DNA of 64,000 nt, taken from NCBI RefSeq assembly GCF_900141885.1, contig NZ_FQYY01000001.1:372001-436000 (forward strand), given 5' to 3'. The stretch is from Mesonia phycicola (GTDB taxonomy: Bacteria > Bacteroidota > Bacteroidia > Flavobacteriales > Flavobacteriaceae). The notes below the pieces were generated by a model that saw only the letters and a program-made list of their open reading frames with translations, was not told where the DNA came from and did not search any database. Below, in pieces: positions 7,968 through 37,702 of the stretch. The position numbers and the translations under genes are program-made. Every line of letters starts with the position of its first letter. Position 1 is the first letter of the stretch.

Positions 7968-10433
7968 TTATTTTTTATTTCTCTTAAAAAAACTTAATAA
8001 ACCAGATTTTTTGTTTTCGCTTTCATGATAGCCGTTACCATATGTACCGTAACCATAACCATAGCCGTAACCATAACCATAGCCATAACCGTAACCATAA
8101 CCATATTTCGCTTTTTGTTGGAAGTAATTTAAAACAAAACTTACATTTTTCACTTCTCCTTTATTATACTTCTCGTTAATTACGTTAAGCATAGGATTTT
8201 TAGTATAATTTTGCCTTACCATATATAATGTTGCGTCTGTAAATTTGAATAAATTTAGCGCATCTGAAACTAATCCTATTGGAGGTGTATCTAAAATAAT
8301 ATAATCATATTCTTCTTTTAACTTAGCCATCAACTCTTCCATTTTTTCTCCCATCAACAACTCTGATGGATTAGGAGGAACAGGACCAGAAGTAATTACG
8401 TCTAAATTATCGTAAGCAGTAGTCTGAATGATTTCTTGTAGTGTATTTTGTTCTACTAAATAATTAACTACACCAACCGTATTGGTTATTTCAAAATCGT
8501 TGAAAATTTTAGGCTTTCTTAAATCTAGACCTACTAATACTGTCTTTTTACCACTAATTGCAAAAACAGAAGCTAAATTCATAGAACAAAAAGTTTTCCC
8601 TTCCCCACTTACAGAAGAAGTTACTAAAACCGTTTTACTACCTTCAACTCCCTTTTTCTTATAAATAAATTGCAAACTAGTACGAAGCCCCCTAAAACTT
8701 TCTGCAATAGAAGATTTAGGTTTATTGAATACAACTAGGTTACTATCTTGCTTACTCTTACCTATTAAGCCTAATAAAGGTATTACAGACAAACGCTCTA
8801 CATCTTTTACGCTATTAATTTTATTATCAAAAAACACCAGCATAAACACAAAAAACACAGGTATAACCAACCCTAGAATTACGGCGATTACGTAATTTAA
8901 TTCTGTATTAGGGCCTATTTTACCTCCACCAACATCTTTAGCTTGATCTATGACTTGTACATCACTTACATTAGCTGCTTTTACTAAACCTGCTTCGTTT
9001 CTTTTCGACAAAAATAAATTATAAGTTTGCTCGCTTATAGTGTAACGCCTTTCAATATTTAAAAGATCTTGTTGTTCTTTTGGTAATTTTTTTGCTTCCG
9101 CTTCTAACTCATTAATCTCTCCTCTGATTTCTGCGATTTGCTTATTTAATAGTTTTTTAGAACTCGTTATATTTTCTAGCAATACAGCTTTAGTTGCATT
9201 AATTTGCCTATCTATATTATCAAATTCTGGTAATTTATCTTTAGCACTATACTGGTATTTACTACGTTGCTCAGACAATACAATAATACGAGAGACTGCT
9301 GCAGTAATACTAGGTTCTTCTATACCAGAAACAGAAGGTGCAGGAACTTCTGAGTAATTAGATTTTTCGGTTAAATAACCTTCTAAATTGAGATAATAAT
9401 CTAATTGCCTTTCTAAATTAGTTAACTCTAGATCGTAGCGGTTCAAATCTGACTTAATAGAAGAACTTTCTGAAGATAAATCTAAAATTTGATTTTTCTC
9501 CATAAAACTATTCATCTCATTTTCTACCGCTTTTAACTCTTTGGCTTTCACCGCTAAACTACTATCTATAAATCGGATGGTTTTGGTAGCAAATAAGTTT
9601 TTTCTATTTAACATATCCCTACTTAACACCTTTGCCGTAGTATTTAAATAGTCTACAATTTTAGCTTTATTATCATCTGTAAAAGCTAAATCAATAATAG
9701 AGCTTCCTTTAGCACTGGTTTGCACAGAAATTTCTTGATATTTCTTTACAACACTATTAAAATTTAGAAATTTTATATAAAAAACATCTCCTTTTTTTGC
9801 TCTACGCTCATCCATATGGATTGTCCCTGTAAAAATTGGAGTTTCTACTTTATCTTCTAATTGATAAGTGTACTTATAGTTTTTTTGAAGAGGTATTCTA
9901 AAAGTTTCTTTGGTATCATAAACCATAACTTGCCCACTACCTGGAGCTTCTTCAAAACTTAAAGAAAGTTGATAAGTCAATTCATCTATAAAAGTAATTT
10001 TTATGGGATGGTTAAGCAACTGACCTTTTAAAGTATCTACTTCTACCCTAAAAGGAGTTTTACCATAGGTATCTATTTTTTGGTATTCCCCTTCTTTTAA
10101 ATATTGAATATAATATTGTAATTCTTCTACTACTTTTTCATTATGAGAGCGTGCACCTAAAGTGATTACAGCGGTATTCACTTTATCAGAAATACCTCCC
10201 CAATTAAAGGTCAAACTCGTATTAGAAGTAAAAAAAGGGTTTTGATCATCTTTAATAGAAATCATCGAAGCAAGCCTATAGACAGGCAACTTTCTTACAT
10301 TGATATAATACGCTATACCAAGACCAATTATTATGCTAATTACAAATAGATACCAATAACTTAATATTCTGATTAAAAAACCCTTAAAATCAAAATTAAG
10401 ACCATCCCCTTGTTTTTCAAACTCTTCTTCCAT
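7968..10433 (-). CDS. wzc: Polysaccharide co-polymerase with BY-kinase domain (Wzc-like)
   Basis: 821 residues. A short cytoplasmic N-terminus is followed by a first membrane helix (about 20-41), a long periplasmic Wzz domain with coiled-coil stretches, a second helix near 510-530, and a cytoplasmic bacterial tyrosine kinase domain. That domain shows Walker A SSVSGEGKTF (about residue 610), Walker A' VLVGLDLRKPK and Walker B IILDTPPIG. The C-terminal tyrosine cluster is a run of ten Tyr-Gly dipeptides (residues 777-796) followed by TYGNGY and a basic tail. Such clusters are the autophosphorylation sites that control oligomer state and chain length. It lies between wza and the dehydrogenase gene in the same operon. 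Confidence 0.93.
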   Translation of the reverse strand: MEEEFEKQGDGLNFDFKGFLIRILSYWYLFVISIIIGLGIAYYINVRKLPVYRLASMISIKDDQNPFFTSNTSLTFNWGGISDKVNTAVITLGARSHNEKVVEELQYYIQYLKEGEYQKIDTYGKTPFRVEVDTLKGQLLNHPIKITFIDELTYQLSLSFEEAPGSGQVMVYDTKETFRIPLQKNYKYTYQLEDKVETPIFTGTIHMDERRAKKGDVFYIKFLNFNSVVKKYQEISVQTSAKGSSIIDLAFTDDNKAKIVDYLNTTAKVLSRDMLNRKNLFATKTIRFIDSSLAVKAKELKAVENEMNSFMEKNQILDLSSESSSIKSDLNRYDLELTNLERQLDYYLNLEGYLTEKSNYSEVPAPSVSGIEEPSITAAVSRIIVLSEQRSKYQYSAKDKLPEFDNIDRQINATKAVLLENITSSKKLLNKQIAEIRGEINELEAEAKKLPKEQQDLLNIERRYTISEQTYNLFLSKRNEAGLVKAANVSDVQVIDQAKDVGGGKIGPNTELNYVIAVILGLVIPVFFVFMLVFFDNKINSVKDVERLSVIPLLGLIGKSKQDSNLVVFNKPKSSIAESFRGLRTSLQFIYKKKGVEGSKTVLVTSSVSGEGKTFCSMNLASVFAISGKKTVLVGLDLRKPKIFNDFEITNTVGVVNYLVEQNTLQEIIQTTAYDNLDVITSGPVPPNPSELLMGEKMEELMAKLKEEYDYIILDTPPIGLVSDALNLFKFTDATLYMVRQNYTKNPMLNVINEKYNKGEVKNVSFVLNYFQQKAKYGYGYGYGYGYGYGYGYGYGTYGNGYHESENKKSGLLSFFKRNKK
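8046..8105 (-). repeat. Hexanucleotide tandem repeat encoding (Tyr-Gly)10 in wzc
   Basis: Ten in-frame 6-base units of the form TAy-GGn (plus strand: TAACCA, TAACCG and TAGCCA variants) encode ten consecutive Tyr-Gly pairs. Codon variants are mixed, so the array is not perfectly uniform, but replication slippage would add or remove whole dipeptides without breaking the frame. Confidence 0.95.
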
Positions 10434-10440
10434 CAGCTTC

Positions 10441-11232
10441 TTATAACCTTTGAGATAATATTATTAATGTACCAAATAAACTTACGATAGAAGCTATTGT
10501 TGTAAAAGTTTCTAACCCTGTTTCTCCTACCCCCCAAGATTTTTGCGGTAATGGTTTCACCATAATTAAATCGTTAGGTTGTATATAGTAGTATGGCGAT
10601 TTTACGGCATCAATATTTGTTAAATCAATATGATGCACTTTATGTCCGCCAGGGTACTGTCTTAAAATCATGACATCGGTACGATCACCTAAAGTGGTTA
10701 TATCTCCCGCATTTGCTATAGCTTCCATAATGGAGACTTCGTCTTTGTAAATCACCTGACTTCCAGAACCTACTTCTCCAATGGTGGTATAACGTATTCC
10801 TGCAAGCTTAACAGTGACAAAAATATTAGCTTCTTCTCTAAAGTATTCTTCTAATAGTTTAGCCTCTATTTTTTTTCTAACTTCTTCTACCGTAAAGCCT
10901 AACACGTTCATTTCTCCTAACGTAGGAATTCTAATATTCCCGTGAGGATCTACTCTAAACCCATCATAATACAGCTTTTCTTCTCCTGTTGCATTAGGGT
11001 TATTATTGTCTATTGGGTTAAAAATACCAACTAGCTCTTGGTCTAATGCTTTTACACGTATACTTAATAAATCATTTACCTGAAGTCGGTAAGTTTGTTG
11101 TACTCGCTGTACTGCAATTAAACTATCTATTTCTTCTTGATTTTCTTGAAGGTAAGTTAATTTTTTAGTGCTAATACAAGAAGTAGCACTAAAAATTAAA
11201 AAAACAAATAAAATAATATTATAATACTTCAT
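10441..11232 (-). CDS. wza: Outer-membrane polysaccharide export lipoprotein (Wza/OPX family)
   Basis: A 263-residue lipoprotein. The signal peptide ends in the lipobox FSATSC, with lipidated Cys19. Then come a polysaccharide export (PES) domain starting TYRLQVNDLLSIRV and an SLBB-like domain (about residues 145-225). The C-terminal hydrophobic stretch ETFTTIASIVSLFGTLIIL could be the membrane-spanning helix of the octameric pore. It forms the outer-membrane exit for the polymer. It is the first gene of the leftward capsule operon, with wzc starting seven bases after its stop and a good promoter -7 box upstream. Confidence 0.92.
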   Translation of the reverse strand: MKYYNIILFVFLIFSATSCISTKKLTYLQENQEEIDSLIAVQRVQQTYRLQVNDLLSIRVKALDQELVGIFNPIDNNNPNATGEEKLYYDGFRVDPHGNIRIPTLGEMNVLGFTVEEVRKKIEAKLLEEYFREEANIFVTVKLAGIRYTTIGEVGSGSQVIYKDEVSIMEAIANAGDITTLGDRTDVMILRQYPGGHKVHHIDLTNIDAVKSPYYYIQPNDLIMVKPLPQKSWGVGETGLETFTTIASIVSLFGTLIILSQRL

Positions 11233-11258
11233 TTCCTCATTTAGATATGAATAAGCAA

Positions 11259-11266
11259 CAAATATA
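11259..11266 (-). promoter_or_regulatory. Bacteroidota -7 box (TATATTTG) of the capsule operon
   Basis: On the minus strand a perfect TAnnTTTG hexamer-like box lies 27 bases upstream of the wza ATG. No clear TTG -33 element is present at the 19-20 base spacing, only a T-rich run. As all genes from wza to the left edge are closely spaced, this is probably the main operon promoter. Confidence 0.55.
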
Positions 11267-11343
11267 CTTTTTCGCTACTAATAAAAAAACTTCCTTATCG
11301 ATAACTCAAATATTTGCGTTTAATTTGTAATAAAATTAAGAAT

Positions 11344-13209
11344 TTGAATTACGCATCTATAGAAAACATCTCTAAAACTTTTGGAGAAAGAGTTATTTTT
11401 GAAAACTTATCTTTTGGTATTAACGAAGGGCAAAAGATTGGATTAATTGCTAAAAATGGTACAGGAAAAACTTCTTTACTAAAAATTTTATCTGGTGACG
11501 ATACCCCTGATAAAGGAGAAGTAAATTACAGAAAATCTATTAAAGTTGCCTTTTTACCACAAGAACCTAACCTTAACAAAGAGCTAACTATTGAAGAAAC
11601 CATTTTTGCTTCTGAGAATGAAGTATTAAGAGTAATTAATCAATACGAAAAAGCTCTAAAAAATCCGGAAGACCAAGAAGCTTTCCAAAAAGCATTTGAT
11701 TTAATGGAAGCTAAACAAGCTTGGGATTTTGAAACTACTTATAAACAAATTCTTTTTCAATTAAAACTAGAAGACTTAAACAAACAAGTAAAGTACCTTT
11801 CTGGTGGACAAAAAAAGAGATTAGCCCTAGCTACTGTTCTTTTAGACAAACCCGATTTACTAATTTTAGATGAACCTACCAACCACCTAGATTTAGAAAT
11901 GATTGAATGGTTAGAAAGTTTCTTTAAAAAAGAAAACTTTACCATTTTTATGGTGACACACGATCGTTATTTTCTAGAGAGAGTTTGTAATGAAATTATT
12001 GAACTAGAAGATGGTATTTTATATAACTACAAAGGTAATTACAGCTACTATTTAGACAAAAAAGAAGCTAGAATTGAAGTTGAAAAAACCAATACAGATA
12101 AAGCTAAACAACTTTACAAAAAAGAGCTTGATTGGATGCGAAAGCAACCTAAAGCACGTACTACCAAATCTAAATCTAGAATAGACGATTTTTCTGAAAT
12201 TAAAGAAAAAGCTTCTAAAAGAAGAAATGACCATGTGGTTCAATTAGAGATTAACATGGAAAGAATGGGAAATAAAGTGGTAGAACTCCACAGTATTTCT
12301 AAAAGCTATGAAGGCAAAAATCTTTTTGAAAAATTTAACTACAACTTTCAACCAGGTGAACGTTTAGGTATCATAGGTAAAAACGGAACCGGAAAGTCTA
12401 CTTTTTTAAATACCCTTACAGGATCTATAAAACCAGATTCTGGTAAAATTGTAATAGGAGAAACTATCAAGTTTGGATATTATACTCAAAAAGGAATTGA
12501 AACCAAGCAAGGACAAAAAGTAATTGATATTATTAGAGAATTTGGGGATTACATTCCTCTAAAAAAAGGAAAACAAATTTCTGCACAACAATTATTAGAA
12601 CGCTTTTTATTCGACAGAAAAAAGCAATATGATTTTGTTGAAAAACTAAGTGGTGGAGAAAGAAAAAGACTATACCTATGTACAGTTCTTATACAAAACC
12701 CTAATTTTTTAATTTTAGATGAGCCTACCAACGATCTAGATATTGTTACCCTAAATGTATTAGAAAACTTTTTATTAGATTTTCCTGGCTGTCTATTAGT
12801 GGTTTCTCACGATCGTTATTTTATGGATAAAATAGTAGATCACTTATTTGTGTTTAGAGGAAAAGGTGTGATTGAAGATTTTCCCGGAAATTATTCTGAT
12901 TTTAGAACTTACGAAGAAAGCACACCTAACGAGGTAGCAGATAAAAAAGAATCTAAATCTAAAAATGATTGGAAAAGCCCCACTACAGACAATCAAAAAC
13001 TTTCTTACAACGAACAGAAAGAATATAAAAAATTAGAACGTGAGATTGCTAAATTTGAAAAAGAAAAAGAAAAACTTCAGCAAGAATTTTTAAAAGATCT
13101 AAACGAAGAAGAAATCAAAAATAAATCTATAGAACTTCAGAAAATAACTAATGCTATTGAAGAAAAAACCGAAAAATGGTTTGAACTTTCAGCAAAAATG
13201 GAAGAATAA
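11344..13209 (+). CDS. ABC-F family ATPase (Uup-like)
   Basis: A 621-residue soluble protein with two ABC ATPase domains and no membrane segments. Walker A motifs are KNGTGKTS (near residue 42) and GKNGTGKST. The signatures are LSGGQKKR and LSGGERKR, each with a Walker B ending in LDEPTNHLD or LDEPTNDLD. The linker is charged, and the C-terminal region (about 540-621) is a coiled coil, as in Uup. ABC-F proteins act on the ribosome or, for Uup, also on branched DNA. The TTG at 11344, giving MNYASIENISKTFGE, is chosen because family members start there; an in-frame TTG at 11314 would reach into the promoter region. It is divergent from the capsule operon. Confidence 0.93.
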   Translation: MNYASIENISKTFGERVIFENLSFGINEGQKIGLIAKNGTGKTSLLKILSGDDTPDKGEVNYRKSIKVAFLPQEPNLNKELTIEETIFASENEVLRVINQYEKALKNPEDQEAFQKAFDLMEAKQAWDFETTYKQILFQLKLEDLNKQVKYLSGGQKKRLALATVLLDKPDLLILDEPTNHLDLEMIEWLESFFKKENFTIFMVTHDRYFLERVCNEIIELEDGILYNYKGNYSYYLDKKEARIEVEKTNTDKAKQLYKKELDWMRKQPKARTTKSKSRIDDFSEIKEKASKRRNDHVVQLEINMERMGNKVVELHSISKSYEGKNLFEKFNYNFQPGERLGIIGKNGTGKSTFLNTLTGSIKPDSGKIVIGETIKFGYYTQKGIETKQGQKVIDIIREFGDYIPLKKGKQISAQQLLERFLFDRKKQYDFVEKLSGGERKRLYLCTVLIQNPNFLILDEPTNDLDIVTLNVLENFLLDFPGCLLVVSHDRYFMDKIVDHLFVFRGKGVIEDFPGNYSDFRTYEESTPNEVADKKESKSKNDWKSPTTDNQKLSYNEQKEYKKLEREIAKFEKEKEKLQQEFLKDLNEEEIKNKSIELQKITNAIEEKTEKWFELSAKMEE

Positions 13210-14091: not shown

Positions 14092-14145
14092 AAAATTACT
14101 CTTTTTAGTATTACAAAAACTTTTTTACTCCTCTTACTGTTTTCC

Positions 14146-14950
14146 AACCGTTATTCTTTACTTGACACGGAATCTCATCTTCTAATTTAAATCAACAAAA
14201 CAGCTCGAAAAATAAAGCAACCACCCCGCCTTCATAAGTAGGGAAACTTTTATCTATAAACTAATTTCAATTCTGTCATTTCGAGCGGAGTCGAGAAACA
14301 TTCTAGCAACCGTCATTCTGGGCTTGACGCAGAATCTCATCTTCTAATTTAAATCGACAAAACAGCTCAAGAAATAAAGCAACCACCCAGCCTTCATAAG
14401 TAGTGTAACTTTTATCTATAAACTCATTTCAAATTTGTCATTTCGAGCGGAATCGAGAAACATTCTAGCAACCGTCATTTCGGGCTTGACACAGAATCTC
14501 ATCCTCCTATTCAAATCTACAAAACAGCTCAAGAAATAAAACAACCACCCCGCCTTCATAAGTAGGGGAACTTTTATCTATAAACTCATTTCAAATTTGT
14601 CATTTCGAGCGGAGTCGAGAAATATTCTAGTAACCGTCATTCTAGACTTGACACGGAATCTCATCTTCTAATTTAAATCTACAAAACAGCTCAAGAAATA
14701 AAGCAACCACCCCGCCTTTCAGGCACCCCTCCTTCATAAGTAAGGGAACTTTTATCTATAAACTCATTTCAACTCTGTCATTTCTAGCGGAGTCGAGAAA
14801 TATTCTAGTAACCGTCATTCTAGACTTGACACGGAATCTCATCTTCCTATTCAAATCCAATTAAAAACTCATTTTCAACTCTGTCATTTCGAGCCGAGTC
14901 GAGAAACATTCTCGCAACCGTCATTCCGGGCTTGACACGGAATCTCATCT
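14146..14950. repeat. Tandem array of a 162-bp intergenic unit (about 5 copies)
   Basis: Taking the landmark CTTGACACGGAATCTCAT, copies start at 14161, 14323, 14485, 14647, 14825 and 14931, i.e. spacings of 162, 162, 162, 178 and 106 bases. The 178-base unit has a 16-base insertion (tttcaggcacccctcc); the 106-base unit has lost about 56 bases. Each unit holds two imperfect palindromes: GTCATTTCGAGCGGAGTCGAGAAA (14275, 14437, 14599, 14777, 14883), and CGTCATTCTGGGCTTGACACGG continuing into GAATCTCAT. The array fills most of the 965-base gap between the methyltransferase and the LolD-type ATPase genes. No open frame of coding character was found in it. Confidence 0.92.
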
Positions 14951-15056
14951 TTATAATTAATACTAGAACTCCATAACACATTTGTAACAACTCCTCACCA
15001 AATCTGTAACAAAGCTTAAAGAAAAACGTCTTACCTTTAGATTTCATTCAAAAACT

Positions 15057-15746
15057 ATGAATAGCAACGTTATAGACATTAAAGGAATTACTAGAGATTT
15101 TCAATTAGGTCAAGAAACCGTAAAGGTTTTAAAAGGTATAGATTTAATTATTGAAAAAGGAGAATACGTAGCGTTCATGGGACCTTCTGGCTCTGGAAAA
15201 TCTACTTTAATGAATCTACTTGGCTGTTTAGATACTCCTACTGCTGGCAGTTATATTTTAAACGGAGCAGATGTAAGTAAAATGAGTGATGATGAGTTAG
15301 CTGAAATAAGAAATAAAGAAATAGGTTTTGTTTTTCAGACGTTTAATTTACTACCTCGCACCACTGCTTTAGATAATGTAGCCCTCCCAATGATTTATGC
15401 AGGAAAAAATAAACACGACAGAAATATACGTGCTGCAGAAGTATTAACAAATGTTGGTTTAGCAGATAGAATGGACCATAAACCCAATCAGCTATCTGGA
15501 GGTCAACGCCAACGTGTGGCAGTAGGTAGAGCATTAGTAAATAAGCCTTCTATTATTTTAGCAGATGAACCAACAGGTAATTTAGATTCTAAAACCTCTG
15601 TAGAAATCATGAATTTATTTAATGAAATTCATGCAGCTGGAAACACGGTTATTTTAGTCACCCACGAAGAAGACATTGCAGAACATGCACATCGGGTAAT
15701 AAGACTAAGAGATGGAATTATTGAGAGTGACGAGAGGAAGAGGTAA
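15057..15746 (+). CDS. ABC transporter ATPase, LolD/MacB family
   Basis: A 229-residue ATPase with Walker [11 protein letters not shown]-loop VFQTFNLLP, signature [16 protein letters not shown] and Walker [14 protein letters not shown]. This DEPTGNLD form is specific to the LolD/MacB/FtsE group, whose members power extraction of lipoproteins or export of peptides through FtsX-like permeases. No permease gene lies next to it: the gene stands between the tandem repeat array and the convergent acyltransferase pair, so its partner must be elsewhere. The ATG start has an A-rich upstream region but no clear promoter box. Confidence 0.9.
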
Positions 15747-15813
15747 ACTTTTCACTTAATTAGTTATTTACATCAAAAATACAGTCTGCCTGCATAAATA
15801 AACCTCAAACCCC

Positions 15814-15885
15814 TTTTTTTAATAACCAATAGAGTACAAACACTATAGGCAGAAAAATGGCAAAATCTAAGGAATTAAATAACAT
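15814..15885 (-). pseudogene. Truncated 5' remnant of a second MBOAT acyltransferase gene
   Basis: On the minus strand, ATG at 15885 opens a frame of 24 codons nearly identical to the start of the intact MBOAT gene at 18306 (MLFNSLDFAIFLPIVF, then Val instead of Ile, LYWLLKK). After a run of A residues the sequence diverges and soon meets a stop. Four bases differ from the intact copy, three of them synonymous. The remnant start overlaps the stop of the SGNH gene, just as it would in a tandem array of MBOAT-SGNH cassettes. Confidence 0.85.
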
Positions 15886-15918
15886 CTAAGGCATCGTTAA
15901 ATTCAGAATTCAAATCTA
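15821..15918 (-). repeat. 98-bp direct repeat, left copy
   Basis: This stretch matches 18242-18339 at 94 of 98 positions, offset by 2421 bases, in the same orientation. It spans the 3' end of the SGNH gene (last 14 codons including stop) and the first 21 codons of an MBOAT gene start. The 44 bases belonging to the SGNH end are identical in both copies. Confidence 0.95.
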
Positions 15919-16861
15919 TTTTTTTTAAACTATCTATAAAAGATGTATTAAAAATTTCTACTCCTTGTTGATTTAAGTGGTGAGCATCATAAAAGTGTAA
16001 GGAATCATTTAATTTTAATTTACCATTAAAATTTATATAAGAAGTGTGGTACTTTTCTGCATAAGCATTCATCTTTACATCAAATTCTTGATTATTCTTA
16101 TAAGATTCATAAAGATTACTGGTTACAGGGGCGTAAACAAAAATAAAATGAATATTAGCCTTTTTTAACATTTCTAAATTTTTTTCAAATTCAGAAAACT
16201 GAATATCCTTTAGCTCCCAACTTCTACTGAGGTTTTTATACTTATGCGGACTACTATTATACTTCATTTCTTTAGAAACAAACCCTCCAGATATATAAGT
16301 ATCTAATTCTTTGTTTTTATCTTCCACAAATGTATTAGTTAGTAATTTTTCTCTTAACAAATCGTAAAAAAGTGTATTATAAACTTTAAGGTTATTTATT
16401 TCTAAAGCCATACTTAAATCGCTAAAATCCATAGAGTCATTAGACATTAAATCTAAAGAAGACTCTACTCCATCAGAACTAAAGGTTCCAGGATAGACTT
16501 CGTAAACAACTAATTTTGGATGCAACAAATCTAGATATCTTTTAAGAAGAATATTAGTTTGAATTGAAGTTTGTGCGCTAGAGCCTAAATTAAAACTACT
16601 ATACCCACCTTTAGTAAAAATTCTATTATCAAACCCTCGATAAGTGTGTGAAGAACCTAGAAAAAGTAAATCTACATCTTGAAAAGTTTTAGCTTCTTTT
16701 AACCTTGTATAAAGATGACCATACCCTCCTTGCTTGTAATTAATATTCCCTTTTAAAAAAGAAGGAGTAAGAAAATATCCAAAAGCAAATAAACCTAAGA
16801 CATAAAATACACTTGCAAAAAAAAGAAACTTAATGGTATTTATTATAAATTTTTTCATCAT
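15875..16861 (-). CDS. SGNH/GDSL-like periplasmic protein paired with MBOAT (AlgJ/DltD-like)
   Basis: 328 residues. An N-terminal signal anchor (about residues 10-32) leads into a periplasmic domain. LLFLGSSHTYRGFD near residues 65-78 carries the candidate nucleophile serine in an SGNH block I pattern, and YDAHHLNQQG near the C-terminus gives the Asp-x-x-His pair. Such proteins work with MBOAT channels to transfer acyl groups to extracellular polymers. ATG at 16861 starts two bases after the MBOAT stop; a longer frame reading into MBOAT is unlikely. The 3' end is part of the 98-bp repeat. Confidence 0.82.
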   Translation of the reverse strand: MMKKFIINTIKFLFFASVFYVLGLFAFGYFLTPSFLKGNINYKQGGYGHLYTRLKEAKTFQDVDLLFLGSSHTYRGFDNRIFTKGGYSSFNLGSSAQTSIQTNILLKRYLDLLHPKLVVYEVYPGTFSSDGVESSLDLMSNDSMDFSDLSMALEINNLKVYNTLFYDLLREKLLTNTFVEDKNKELDTYISGGFVSKEMKYNSSPHKYKNLSRSWELKDIQFSEFEKNLEMLKKANIHFIFVYAPVTSNLYESYKNNQEFDVKMNAYAEKYHTSYINFNGKLKLNDSLHFYDAHHLNQQGVEIFNTSFIDSLKKIDLNSEFNDALDVI

Positions 16862-16863
16862 TT

Positions 16864-18306
16864 TTAAAATTGAAAATAAATAAATGGAGTTTCTTCTGTA
16901 ACCATATATAACGCCATAATTAAAATAAGAAGGGAATAAAAAACCCATCTTAATGGCCTAGTAAATTTAGCATTAAATACAGCTATAGCAAATTGATTTT
17001 TTCTACCTAACCATTCTATCACCAAGAAAAAAATCAGTAATAAAAGTACGTGTTCACAATCTTCTATAATGGATGGAATTTTAAATAAAGAACGATGAAA
17101 AATTCCTTTAATATAACTTAAAGCTTGCCCCAAATTTTCTGCTCTAAAAAAAATCCAAGCAAATACAGTTAATACAAAAGTACTTCCCATAGATAAAAGT
17201 TCTTTTAAGCTTGGAAGATTTTTATTATAGGCTACTACTTCTATATGATTTCTATTTTTATTCTGAAGCAAAAGTGGCAAGAAGTAAAGTGCATTTAAAC
17301 CTCCCCAAACCACAAATGTCCAGTTAGCGCCGTGCCAAAAACCACTGACTAGAAAAATGATAAAAGTATTTCTTACTTTCATCCACATACCCCCTCTACT
17401 TCCGCCTAACGGAATATATAAATAATCTCTAAACCAAGTAGAAAGAGAAATATGCCATCTGCGCCAAAACTCTGCGATATCTCTCGAAAAATAAGGAAAG
17501 GCAAAATTTCGCATCAAATCAAAACCAAAAAGCCGAGAGGTACCAATAGCTATATCTGAATAGCCTGAAAAATCACCATAAATCTGAAAAGTAAAAAACA
17601 CAGCCCCAAGTACCAAAGTGCTTCCGCTATAATCGCCAGAGTTATTAAAAATCTGATTAGCAAACTGCGCACAATTATCGGCTATCACCACTTTTTTAAA
17701 TAGCCCCCATAAAATTTGACGCATTCCGTCTACTGCCAAACTATAGTCAAACTTTCTCTTTTTATAAAACTGAGGCAATAAATGTGTTGCTCTTTCTATA
17801 GGTCCTGCTACTAGCTGCGGAAAGAAACTAACAAAAGCGGTAAAAGCTATAAAATCTTTGGTTGGTTTTAACTTTTTTCGATAAGCATCTATTGTGTAAC
17901 TCAACGTTTGAAAAGTATAAAAACTAATACCTACCGGAAGTACAATATCTAAACCTCGAAAATTCACCTCTTGACCAAAAAACTGAAAAGCTCCTATAAA
18001 ATTTTCTAAAAAAAAATTAGAGTATTTAAAATACCCTAAAAAGCCAAGGTTCACTAAAATACTTATCCAAAGAAATATTTTCTTTTTTGATTTTTCTGCA
18101 GACTTTTCAATACACAACCCCATTGTATAATCTACAACAGTGCTAAAAAGTATTAAAAATAAAAAACGCCAATCCCACATTCCGTAGAAAATGTAACTCG
18201 CTACTGCAATTAAAAAATTTTGTGCTTTTAATTGCTTTTTTAATAACCAATAGAGTATAAACACTATAGGTAAAAAAATAGCAAAATCTAAGGAATTAAA
18301 TAACAT
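16864..18306 (-). CDS. MBOAT family O-acyltransferase (AlgI-like)
   Basis: A 480-residue polytopic membrane protein with about ten hydrophobic helices. The family motifs are present: FWRRWHISLSTWFRDYLYIPLGGSRGG, and the conserved histidine in FWHGANWTFVVWGG at about residue 323. AlgI/PatA/DltB-type proteins carry acyl groups from a cytoplasmic donor across the membrane for O-acylation of polysaccharides or teichoic acids. The SGNH partner follows two bases downstream. Its first 21 codons lie inside the 98-bp direct repeat. Substrate is unknown; acetylation of the capsule is possible but the operons are 5 kb apart. Confidence 0.92.
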   Translation of the reverse strand: MLFNSLDFAIFLPIVFILYWLLKKQLKAQNFLIAVASYIFYGMWDWRFLFLILFSTVVDYTMGLCIEKSAEKSKKKIFLWISILVNLGFLGYFKYSNFFLENFIGAFQFFGQEVNFRGLDIVLPVGISFYTFQTLSYTIDAYRKKLKPTKDFIAFTAFVSFFPQLVAGPIERATHLLPQFYKKRKFDYSLAVDGMRQILWGLFKKVVIADNCAQFANQIFNNSGDYSGSTLVLGAVFFTFQIYGDFSGYSDIAIGTSRLFGFDLMRNFAFPYFSRDIAEFWRRWHISLSTWFRDYLYIPLGGSRGGMWMKVRNTFIIFLVSGFWHGANWTFVVWGGLNALYFLPLLLQNKNRNHIEVVAYNKNLPSLKELLSMGSTFVLTVFAWIFFRAENLGQALSYIKGIFHRSLFKIPSIIEDCEHVLLLLIFFLVIEWLGRKNQFAIAVFNAKFTRPLRWVFYSLLILIMALYMVTEETPFIYFQF

Positions 18307-18339
18307 CTAAGGCATCGTTAAATTCAGAATTCAAATCTA
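18242..18339 (-). repeat. 98-bp direct repeat, right copy
   Basis: The right copy contains the start of the intact MBOAT gene and, upstream of it, the last 14 codons (DLNSEFNDALDVI and stop, 18296-18339) of an SGNH gene that is otherwise missing. On the minus strand the outer edge reads TAGATTTG, which fits the -7 box consensus and could now serve MBOAT transcription. Beyond 18339 no further SGNH similarity is seen. Confidence 0.95.
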
Positions 18340-18382: not shown

Positions 18383-18574
18383 ATGCTAGAAAATATTTCA
18401 GAAAAAACCCAACTTATTATCACTATTATCGTGCTTGCCGTATTGTTTTTTGCAGTAGTAAAAAATAATACTAGAAATAAAGAGAAGCGATACGATAGAA
18501 AATCTAGAAATTTTAGAAAAAATTTCTATGACAGAAGAAAACAACAAAACCAAACCGATAAAAAAAGAGATTAA
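18383..18574 (+). CDS. Small membrane protein with basic tail, unknown function
   Basis: A 63-residue protein: one N-terminal hydrophobic helix (about residues 10-26, LIITIIVLAVLFFAVV) followed by a strongly basic tail rich in Lys, Arg and Asn. It is not recognised. The stop is three bases before the ATG of the cobalamin adenosyltransferase gene, so the two are probably co-transcribed. A 84-codon open frame on the opposite strand overlaps it but looks like a shadow. Confidence 0.6.
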   Translation: MLENISEKTQLIITIIVLAVLFFAVVKNNTRNKEKRYDRKSRNFRKNFYDRRKQQNQTDKKRD

Positions 18575-18577
18575 TAA

Positions 18578-19153
18578 ATGAAAATATATACCAAAACTGG
18601 AGATAAAGGTAAAACAGGGCTTTTTGGAGGCACTAGAATACCAAAACATCATATTAGAATAGATAGTTACGGTACGGTTGATGAACTTAACGCGTATATT
18701 GGTTTAATTAAAGATCAAAATATAGAAAAATATTTTAAAGAAAACCTTTACCAAATACAACATCAGCTTTTCACTATTGGTGCAGAATTAGCAACAGACC
18801 CTGCTAAAGCCAAATTAAAAAATGGAAAAGAACGATTAGATATAGAAAAAGTTCAGCAAAAAGAAATTGAATTTCTAGAGCAAGAAATAGACCGAATGAA
18901 TGAAGATTTACCAGAGATGACACATTTTATTTTACCTGGCGGTCATACAACCGTGTCATATTGTCACATAGCGCGATGCGTTTGCAGAAGAGCAGAGCGC
19001 TTATGCACAGCACTTTACCAAGAAGAACCTTTTGACGAATTTATTTTACAATACCTTAATAGATTATCAGATTATCTATTTGTACTGGCACGAATGTTGT
19101 CTAAATCACTTAAGGTAGAAGAAATAAAATGGATACCCAAAAAATCTTCTTAA
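18578..19153 (+). CDS. Cob(I)alamin adenosyltransferase, PduO type
   Basis: 191 residues. Motifs of the PduO-type ATP:cob(I)alamin adenosyltransferase are visible: MKIYTKTGDKGKTGLFGG (ATP-binding N-terminus), VDELNAYIG, and FILPGGHTTVSYCHIARCVCRRAER (active-site helix with conserved Arg residues). It makes adenosylcobalamin, the cofactor of methylmalonyl-CoA mutase, in the cytoplasm as a trimer. The mutase chaperone MeaB is encoded 10 kb away at 28.7 kb; no mutase gene is in the window. No cobalamin riboswitch is seen upstream. Confidence 0.93.
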   Translation: MKIYTKTGDKGKTGLFGGTRIPKHHIRIDSYGTVDELNAYIGLIKDQNIEKYFKENLYQIQHQLFTIGAELATDPAKAKLKNGKERLDIEKVQQKEIEFLEQEIDRMNEDLPEMTHFILPGGHTTVSYCHIARCVCRRAERLCTALYQEEPFDEFILQYLNRLSDYLFVLARMLSKSLKVEEIKWIPKKSS

Positions 19154-36882: not shown

Positions 36883-37482
36883 ATGAATTTTACCAACAAA
36901 GAAATACCGCTTTCTATAAAAGATCAAGTAGAAGTTGCTTTGAGTTACTATCCGCAATTAAAAGATACTCCTATTGCATTTCGGTTTAAAAAAGAGATTA
37001 AAAAATCTACCATGCAGGCCCAACCTGCTTTTAAAAGTATTTTTAAAAGTAAAAAAAATAGAGCCTACGTAATTTTAATTTCTGAGAAATTTCAAATTGA
37101 AGAGGAAGAATTTTCTATTTTAAATGTGGAAGATGATGTGCTTATTGGATGGATTGGGCACGAATTAGGCCATATAGTAGATTATTTGCACAGAGGCACA
37201 TTCGGGATGATTATCTTTGGATTTAAATATTTATTCTCAACCGCACACATTCAAGAGGTAGAACGTGCCGCAGATACTTATGCTGTAAAACACGGAATGT
37301 ATCAATATATTTTGGCGACGAAGAATTTTATTTTAAACAATACCAGTATTTCGCCTAAGTATAAAAACAGAATTAGAAAACTCTACATGTCTCCAGAAGA
37401 AATTATGGAATTGGTAAACCATCTTGATATTGCTGAAGTAGAACAAAAAGTAGAAAAAGAGTTTCAGAAAGAAAGTTTGTAA
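36883..37482 (+). CDS. Putative zinc metallopeptidase (HELGH motif)
   Basis: 199 residues. The zinc-binding HExxH motif is present as IGWIGHELGHIVDYLH (about residues 92-107), and EVERAADTYAVKHGM downstream supplies a third acidic ligand as in M48-like gluzincins. It has no signal peptide; one moderately hydrophobic stretch (GMIIFGFKYLFSTA) follows the metal site. Substrate unknown. The gene stands alone, and palindromic repeats follow it. Confidence 0.75.
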   Translation: MNFTNKEIPLSIKDQVEVALSYYPQLKDTPIAFRFKKEIKKSTMQAQPAFKSIFKSKKNRAYVILISEKFQIEEEEFSILNVEDDVLIGWIGHELGHIVDYLHRGTFGMIIFGFKYLFSTAHIQEVERAADTYAVKHGMYQYILATKNFILNNTSISPKYKNRIRKLYMSPEEIMELVNHLDIAEVEQKVEKEFQKESL

Positions 37483-37487
37483 TCTAA

Positions 37488-37535
37488 TTTTCATTCTCAG
37501 GGTGTGATACTGAATCAAGTTCAGCATGACGTTGA
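37488..37535. repeat. Palindromic dispersed repeat, copy 1
   Basis: A 48-base element TTTTCATTCTCAG... ...AGTTCAGCATGACGTTGA with an internal CTGAAtcaagTTCAG palindrome. It is 45/48 identical to the copy at 37655-37702 and resembles in layout the CGTCATTC...GAATC elements of the 14-kb array. Confidence 0.9.
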
Positions 37536-37654
37536 TTACTTTATACAATGAAAAAAGTTTAAACTAGTACTATACACTTAGATTGATTTACCTCTGAGTT
37601 TTCTACAGATGATGTTTAATCTAACTTTGAAATAAAATTCGTCTCAATATCTCT

Positions 37655-37702
37655 TTTTCATTCTCAGGATGGGATACTGAATCGAGTTCAGCATGACGTT
37701 GA
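37655..37702. repeat. Palindromic dispersed repeat, copy 2
   Basis: Second copy in the same orientation, 167 bases after the first. It lies 9 bases before the stop of the GH3 gene and may influence its 3' end. Confidence 0.9.

Follow-up and report, generated by a model that had tools for sequence, protein, structure and literature searches.

The 64-kb window analysed here, part of a draft genome assembly of 43 contigs, carries the front of an MBOAT gene twice, once at the head of an intact MBOAT-SGNH gene pair and once, as a 24-codon stub, at the 3′ end of the SGNH gene. The stub is probably the remnant of a second MBOAT-SGNH unit that was lost. In relatives, such units share a nearly constant MBOAT head and differ in the MBOAT C-terminus and in the SGNH partner. 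In the handful of genomes concerned, this pattern is best read as the exchange of a C-terminus-plus-SGNH module between units, together with gain and loss of units.

The intact MBOAT gene (16864-18306, minus strand) encodes a protein of 480 amino acids that matches Pfam family PF03062 (E = 4.6e-28; 98.9 bits, cut-off 27) and ends in the hexapeptide FIYFQF. This hexapeptide, of the pattern FXYXXF, was C-terminal in all the MBOATs of two sets (10 of 10 and 13 of 13). The adjoining SGNH partner gene (15875-16858, minus strand) encodes 327 amino acids with GSSH and DAHH motifs. Its product matched DUF1574 (E = 2e-8, above the cut-off) and DltD (E = 2e-4, below the cut-off), and its homologues include proteins from Lutibacter and Algibacter. 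The predicted structure of the SGNH protein matches DltD and GDSL hydrolases and, less strongly, PatB, for which the match is weak; the model was built on seven sequences and had a mean pLDDT of 66.7, and was therefore read for the overall fold and the helix ends only. Motifs of the GxS and DxxH types were present in 10 of 11 partner proteins, the G006 partner being the one without them. None of the four other partner proteins scanned against Pfam gave a family match.

In the PatA/PatB system, the MBOAT loads an acetyl group on the tyrosine of a C-terminal hexapeptide and the SGNH partner then receives the acetyl group, FXYXXF being the acyl-shuttle hexapeptide motif (PMC12148441). The window pair resembles PatA/PatB, AlgI/AlgJ and DltB/DltD in that an MBOAT adjoins an SGNH protein, and in the C-terminal FXYXXF of the MBOAT and the SGNH fold of the partner. 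DltB/DltD has a separate DltX microprotein and a DltA/DltC carrier system; the window pair bears the shuttle motif on the MBOAT itself. From its sequence features, the pair is predicted to be an MBOAT-SGNH acyltransferase pair that transfers an acyl group to a glycan. Polysaccharide export genes, recognised by Poly_export and GNVR matches, lie to the left of the cassette in the window, and therefore a surface polysaccharide is a likely candidate acceptor. A putative Wzc-like protein (7968-10433) carries a long GY-repeat close to its C-terminal end. The genome has just one further MBOAT unit, an MBOAT with a GxS/DxxH partner, which lies beyond the window about 31 kb leftward of the cassette (L049:7638-9958). 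Its MBOAT is 56% identical to that of the window pair, and it sits among genes resembling glycan synthesis genes. The genome showed no second complete unit at the locus itself, which holds one unit and the 24-codon stub.

The two copies of the direct repeat (15821-15918 and 18242-18339, both minus strand) are identical at 94 of 98 positions, lie 2421 bases apart, and extend to 104 nt at 96% identity. Re-measurement thus gave the coordinates, identity and spacing of the original prediction, and the left MBOAT stub was likewise seen to halt at an A-tract after 24 codons. Chance was rejected as the source of the repeat because the second-best ungapped 98-mer match, over both strands of the window, was just 51 of 98. 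A search of the assembly with the 104-mer did not find a third copy of the repeat, the other matches at E ≤ 1 being four short ones of at most 31 bits. The right copy consists of 33 nt of MBOAT leader, beginning with TAGATTTG, which resembles a Bacteroidota -7 box, and of MBOAT codons 1-24. In the left copy, the same leader and MBOAT head are joined to the 3′ end of the SGNH gene at an A8 tract (15919-15926), and the stub ends at an A7 tract (15814-15820). At the place matching the stub end, the A-run of the right copy is six long (A6) and gives way to other bases (18236-18241). Beyond the stub lies a spacer of about 68 bases (15747-15813), a second copy of which was not found in the genome and whose gene-side bases resemble the G002 spacer by eye. 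The spacer leads to an ABC ATPase gene (15057-15746, plus strand; ABC_tran, E = 2.6e-34), presumably LolD-like.

Of the two copies, the right one is native and the left one derived. The leaders were compared by local alignment of 70 bases with six MBOAT leaders of relatives, each against 1000 dinucleotide shuffles. The leader of the intact gene resembled four of the six (G002a, G002b, G014 and G012; 0/1000 shuffles each) and showed no significant likeness to those of G003 (210/1000) and G010b (159/1000). Upstream of the left stub, the corresponding 70 bases contain the same 33 leader bases, but these are preceded by SGNH coding sequence, and the values against the same four leaders were 708, 730, 671 and 137 of 1000 shuffles. 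A leader block, AATTAAAT-TTAG-TTTG-AA, located 33-34 bases before the start codon, is common to G014, G012 and both units of G002, and the intact MBOAT of the window also has it, with bases upstream of the repeat included. The polarity follows from this comparison, since the leader likeness runs upstream past the repeat on the right and not on the left.

The SGNH gene, accordingly, ends in borrowed sequence: its last 14 codons and stop (15875-15918, minus strand) come from the copied leader and the start of the MBOAT, and its tail was thus rewritten by the copy. SGNH homology ends near residue 313, and in the model the last core helix spans residues 297-313, with a separate short helix at 318-326. 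Seventeen homologue rows, two of which (L047 and L108) are apparently the same record, stop 2-13 residues past the column of residue 311, whereas the window protein has 16 more. The 14-residue tail, DLNSEFNDALDVI, is absent from the homologues. The putative catalytic motifs GSSH and DAHH precede the copied tail, and the enzyme may therefore well be functional.

On the right, the cassette is flanked by a 63-aa ORF (18383-18574, plus strand) and a cobalamin adenosyltransferase gene (18578-19153, plus strand; Cob_adeno_trans, E = 3.2e-63). The ABC ATPase gene directly adjoins the 63-aa ORF in 6 of 15 genus relatives (G001, G005, G006, G007, G011 and G014). In the window, and likewise in G002 and G012, the cassette stands between these two genes. 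G010 has it after the ABC ATPase gene, on a contig that ends before the other side, and in G003 it lies behind an apparent 63-aa ORF, judged by eye. This count leaves out the other five relatives (G004, G008, G009, G013 and G015). Some MBOAT match (E ≤ 0.001) occurred in 9 of the 16 genus genomes, including that of the window. Elsewhere in the window, five imperfect copies of a 148-nt unit (14145-14977), 162-178 apart with the last one closer, sit between the methyltransferase and ABC ATPase genes, and short pieces of this unit recur in the genome. A 54-nt repeat pair, 91% alike and 167 apart, is found at 37482-37702.

Comparison of MBOAT-SGNH copy number across relatives, proposed in the original prediction as a check on a tandem origin, revealed two units in G010 and in G002. 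The gene order in G010 is MBOATa-SGNHa-MBOATb-SGNHb-ABC ATPase, with the first MBOAT cut by the contig end and 19 bases separating SGNHa from MBOATb; a whole second unit thus occupies the place of the window's stub. In G002, one unit lies beside the 63-aa ORF and the second between methyltransferase and ABC-F genes, accompanied by a broken second ABC ATPase copy (L050:12959-13580). Across the family, at least three genomes among the matches listed (G061, G140 and G197) have MBOAT pairs 2.3-2.6 kb apart. Units decay elsewhere: the start codon of the G002b MBOAT reads ATT and the G012 MBOAT has an internal stop. At the G012 cassette site (L051:8122-11788), extra ORFs lie between the MBOAT and the 63-aa ORF, and two of them (11128-11400 and 11516-11788) are identical over their first 40 residues. 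The predicted tandem origin is therefore upheld as to the tandem units, which G010 has at the locus and G002 close by, and as to the left copy being the front of a second MBOAT; the second SGNH that it placed on the right has to be dropped.

The preferred explanation starts from an ancestral order of leader-MBOAT1-SGNH1-leader-MBOAT2-SGNH2 toward the ABC ATPase gene, as still found in G010. The start of unit 2 would have abutted the 3′ end of SGNH1, and SGNH1 would therefore read into the copied leader and gain its last 14 codons. Unit 2, once whole, would then have been lost beyond MBOAT codon 24, within the A-tract. The MBOAT of the remaining unit 1 should load an acyl group on its own C-terminal tyrosine, and the SGNH protein should pass it to a surface glycan. 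The loss of a second unit is favoured by the end of SGNH homology where the copy starts and by the modelled end of the last core helix at residue 313, as well as by the polarity of the copies, the paired units of G010 and G002 and the decay of units in relatives. The two heads of the window differ at 4 of 71 positions, near the 2 of 71 between G002a and G002b and far below the 10-20 of 71 to other genomes, suggesting that the copy is recent or has been kept alike by conversion. Against a lost unit, no remains of MBOAT2 past codon 24 or of SGNH2 were found, and the spacer is without a second copy in the genome. In addition, two of the six leaders (G003 and G010b) lack significant likeness to the intact one, and G002 has its second unit on the far side of the ABC ATPase and methyltransferase genes instead of right after the SGNH gene.

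The A8 and A7 junctions fit unit loss, but the location of both copy ends at A-tracts is more simply explained by one short copying event. In this reading there was never a second unit: replication would have stalled in the A-tract at the 3′ end of the SGNH gene, jumped to the A6 of the MBOAT head 2.4 kb off, and copied roughly 98 bases back across the leader before it returned. We regard such a one-step templated insertion as less likely than unit loss, though a real rival to it. It takes one event instead of two, it agrees with the A6 at the same place in the MBOAT source, and it accords with the absence of SGNH2 remains. However, the site is just where G010 carries a whole second unit, matching bases were not seen at the leader-side junction, and A-tracts are common, there being five runs of at least six A in the MBOAT gene. 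Live amplification, or a collapse in short-read assembly that hides further units of this strain, would be helped by 98-base direct repeats that flank the cassette and could recombine, and by the draft state of the assembly; it is nevertheless improbable, as the stub is joined to a unique spacer and the copies carry four fixed differences, unlike a simple collapse. Hardly credible is the exact version of the original prediction, an ancestral SGNH-MBOAT repeat with a 14-codon SGNH remnant on the right: sequence identity alone is symmetric, but the final 14 codons of the SGNH gene are a translated MBOAT leader, and a second SGNH on the right was rejected given the leader likeness beyond the repeat and the absence of the tail from homologues.

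All four differences between the copies are transitions inside the MBOAT part (codon 9, two in codon 12, and codon 17), three being synonymous and one Val/Ile; their place in the MBOAT part and the three synonymous changes had been noted originally. That the lost copy was a functional paralogue does not follow from these proportions. At least three of four random transitions would be synonymous by chance with P of about 0.14, and the changes may have arisen in the intact right copy, which is itself under selection. The five nearest genus heads match the left copy at 2, 2, 3, 2 and 2 of the four sites and the right copy at 1 each. Among 51 distinct family heads, the right-hand base is the commoner one at each of the four sites.

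Tandem gene arrays with partial-copy remnants are a general kind of arrangement. The present locus resembles them in its near-identical heads in direct orientation and in the decay of extra copies, and differs from them in that the copies share the head only, their tails being different in relatives. The repeat by itself is an ordinary relic; the pattern of a constant membrane half with a swapped C-terminus and a swapped glycan-acting partner is less ordinary. Aligned with each other, the G002a and G002b units show 95.4% identity across the 1273 columns that run from the leader to around MBOAT codon 400. Identity then drops to about 45% for the remaining MBOAT and the SGNH gene and recovers to 90% in a 171-base stretch at the ABC ATPase gene; the two SGNH partners share 21% protein identity. 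Likewise, identity between the G010b and G012 proteins is 95-100% in much of the first 340 columns but 18% around column 430. The G061 pair shows 83-99% in the body (90-base steps) and about 40-50% in the partner region, whereas G140 and G197 have just a milder contrast, in which one gene is conserved and its neighbour less so. The residues before FIYFQF track the SGNH class: TEETP is found in the window and G002a, a P-ended variant in 12 of 13 family rows from loci with the window's SGNH class, and GQEQE in G002b, G012 and G014. PatA/PatB, AlgI/AlgJ and DltB/DltD differ from this arrangement, in which the MBOAT body stays the same while units at a single locus seem to trade C-terminus and SGNH class.

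We tentatively propose that the leader and the first ~400 codons of the MBOAT could serve as a constant head, and that the shuttle hairpin and the SGNH gene could be swapped by homologous recombination, with crossovers in the MBOAT body and in the ABC ATPase gene. A lineage might thereby alter the acylation of its surface glycans, and the 98-base copy would be a footprint of this process, still able to drop or double the cassette. A literature search by titles and abstract openings did not find partner exchange in MBOAT-SGNH pairs described. If true, such exchange would be a naturally occurring experiment on how MBOATs recognise their SGNH partners, and one means for environmental bacteria to vary their surface sugars.
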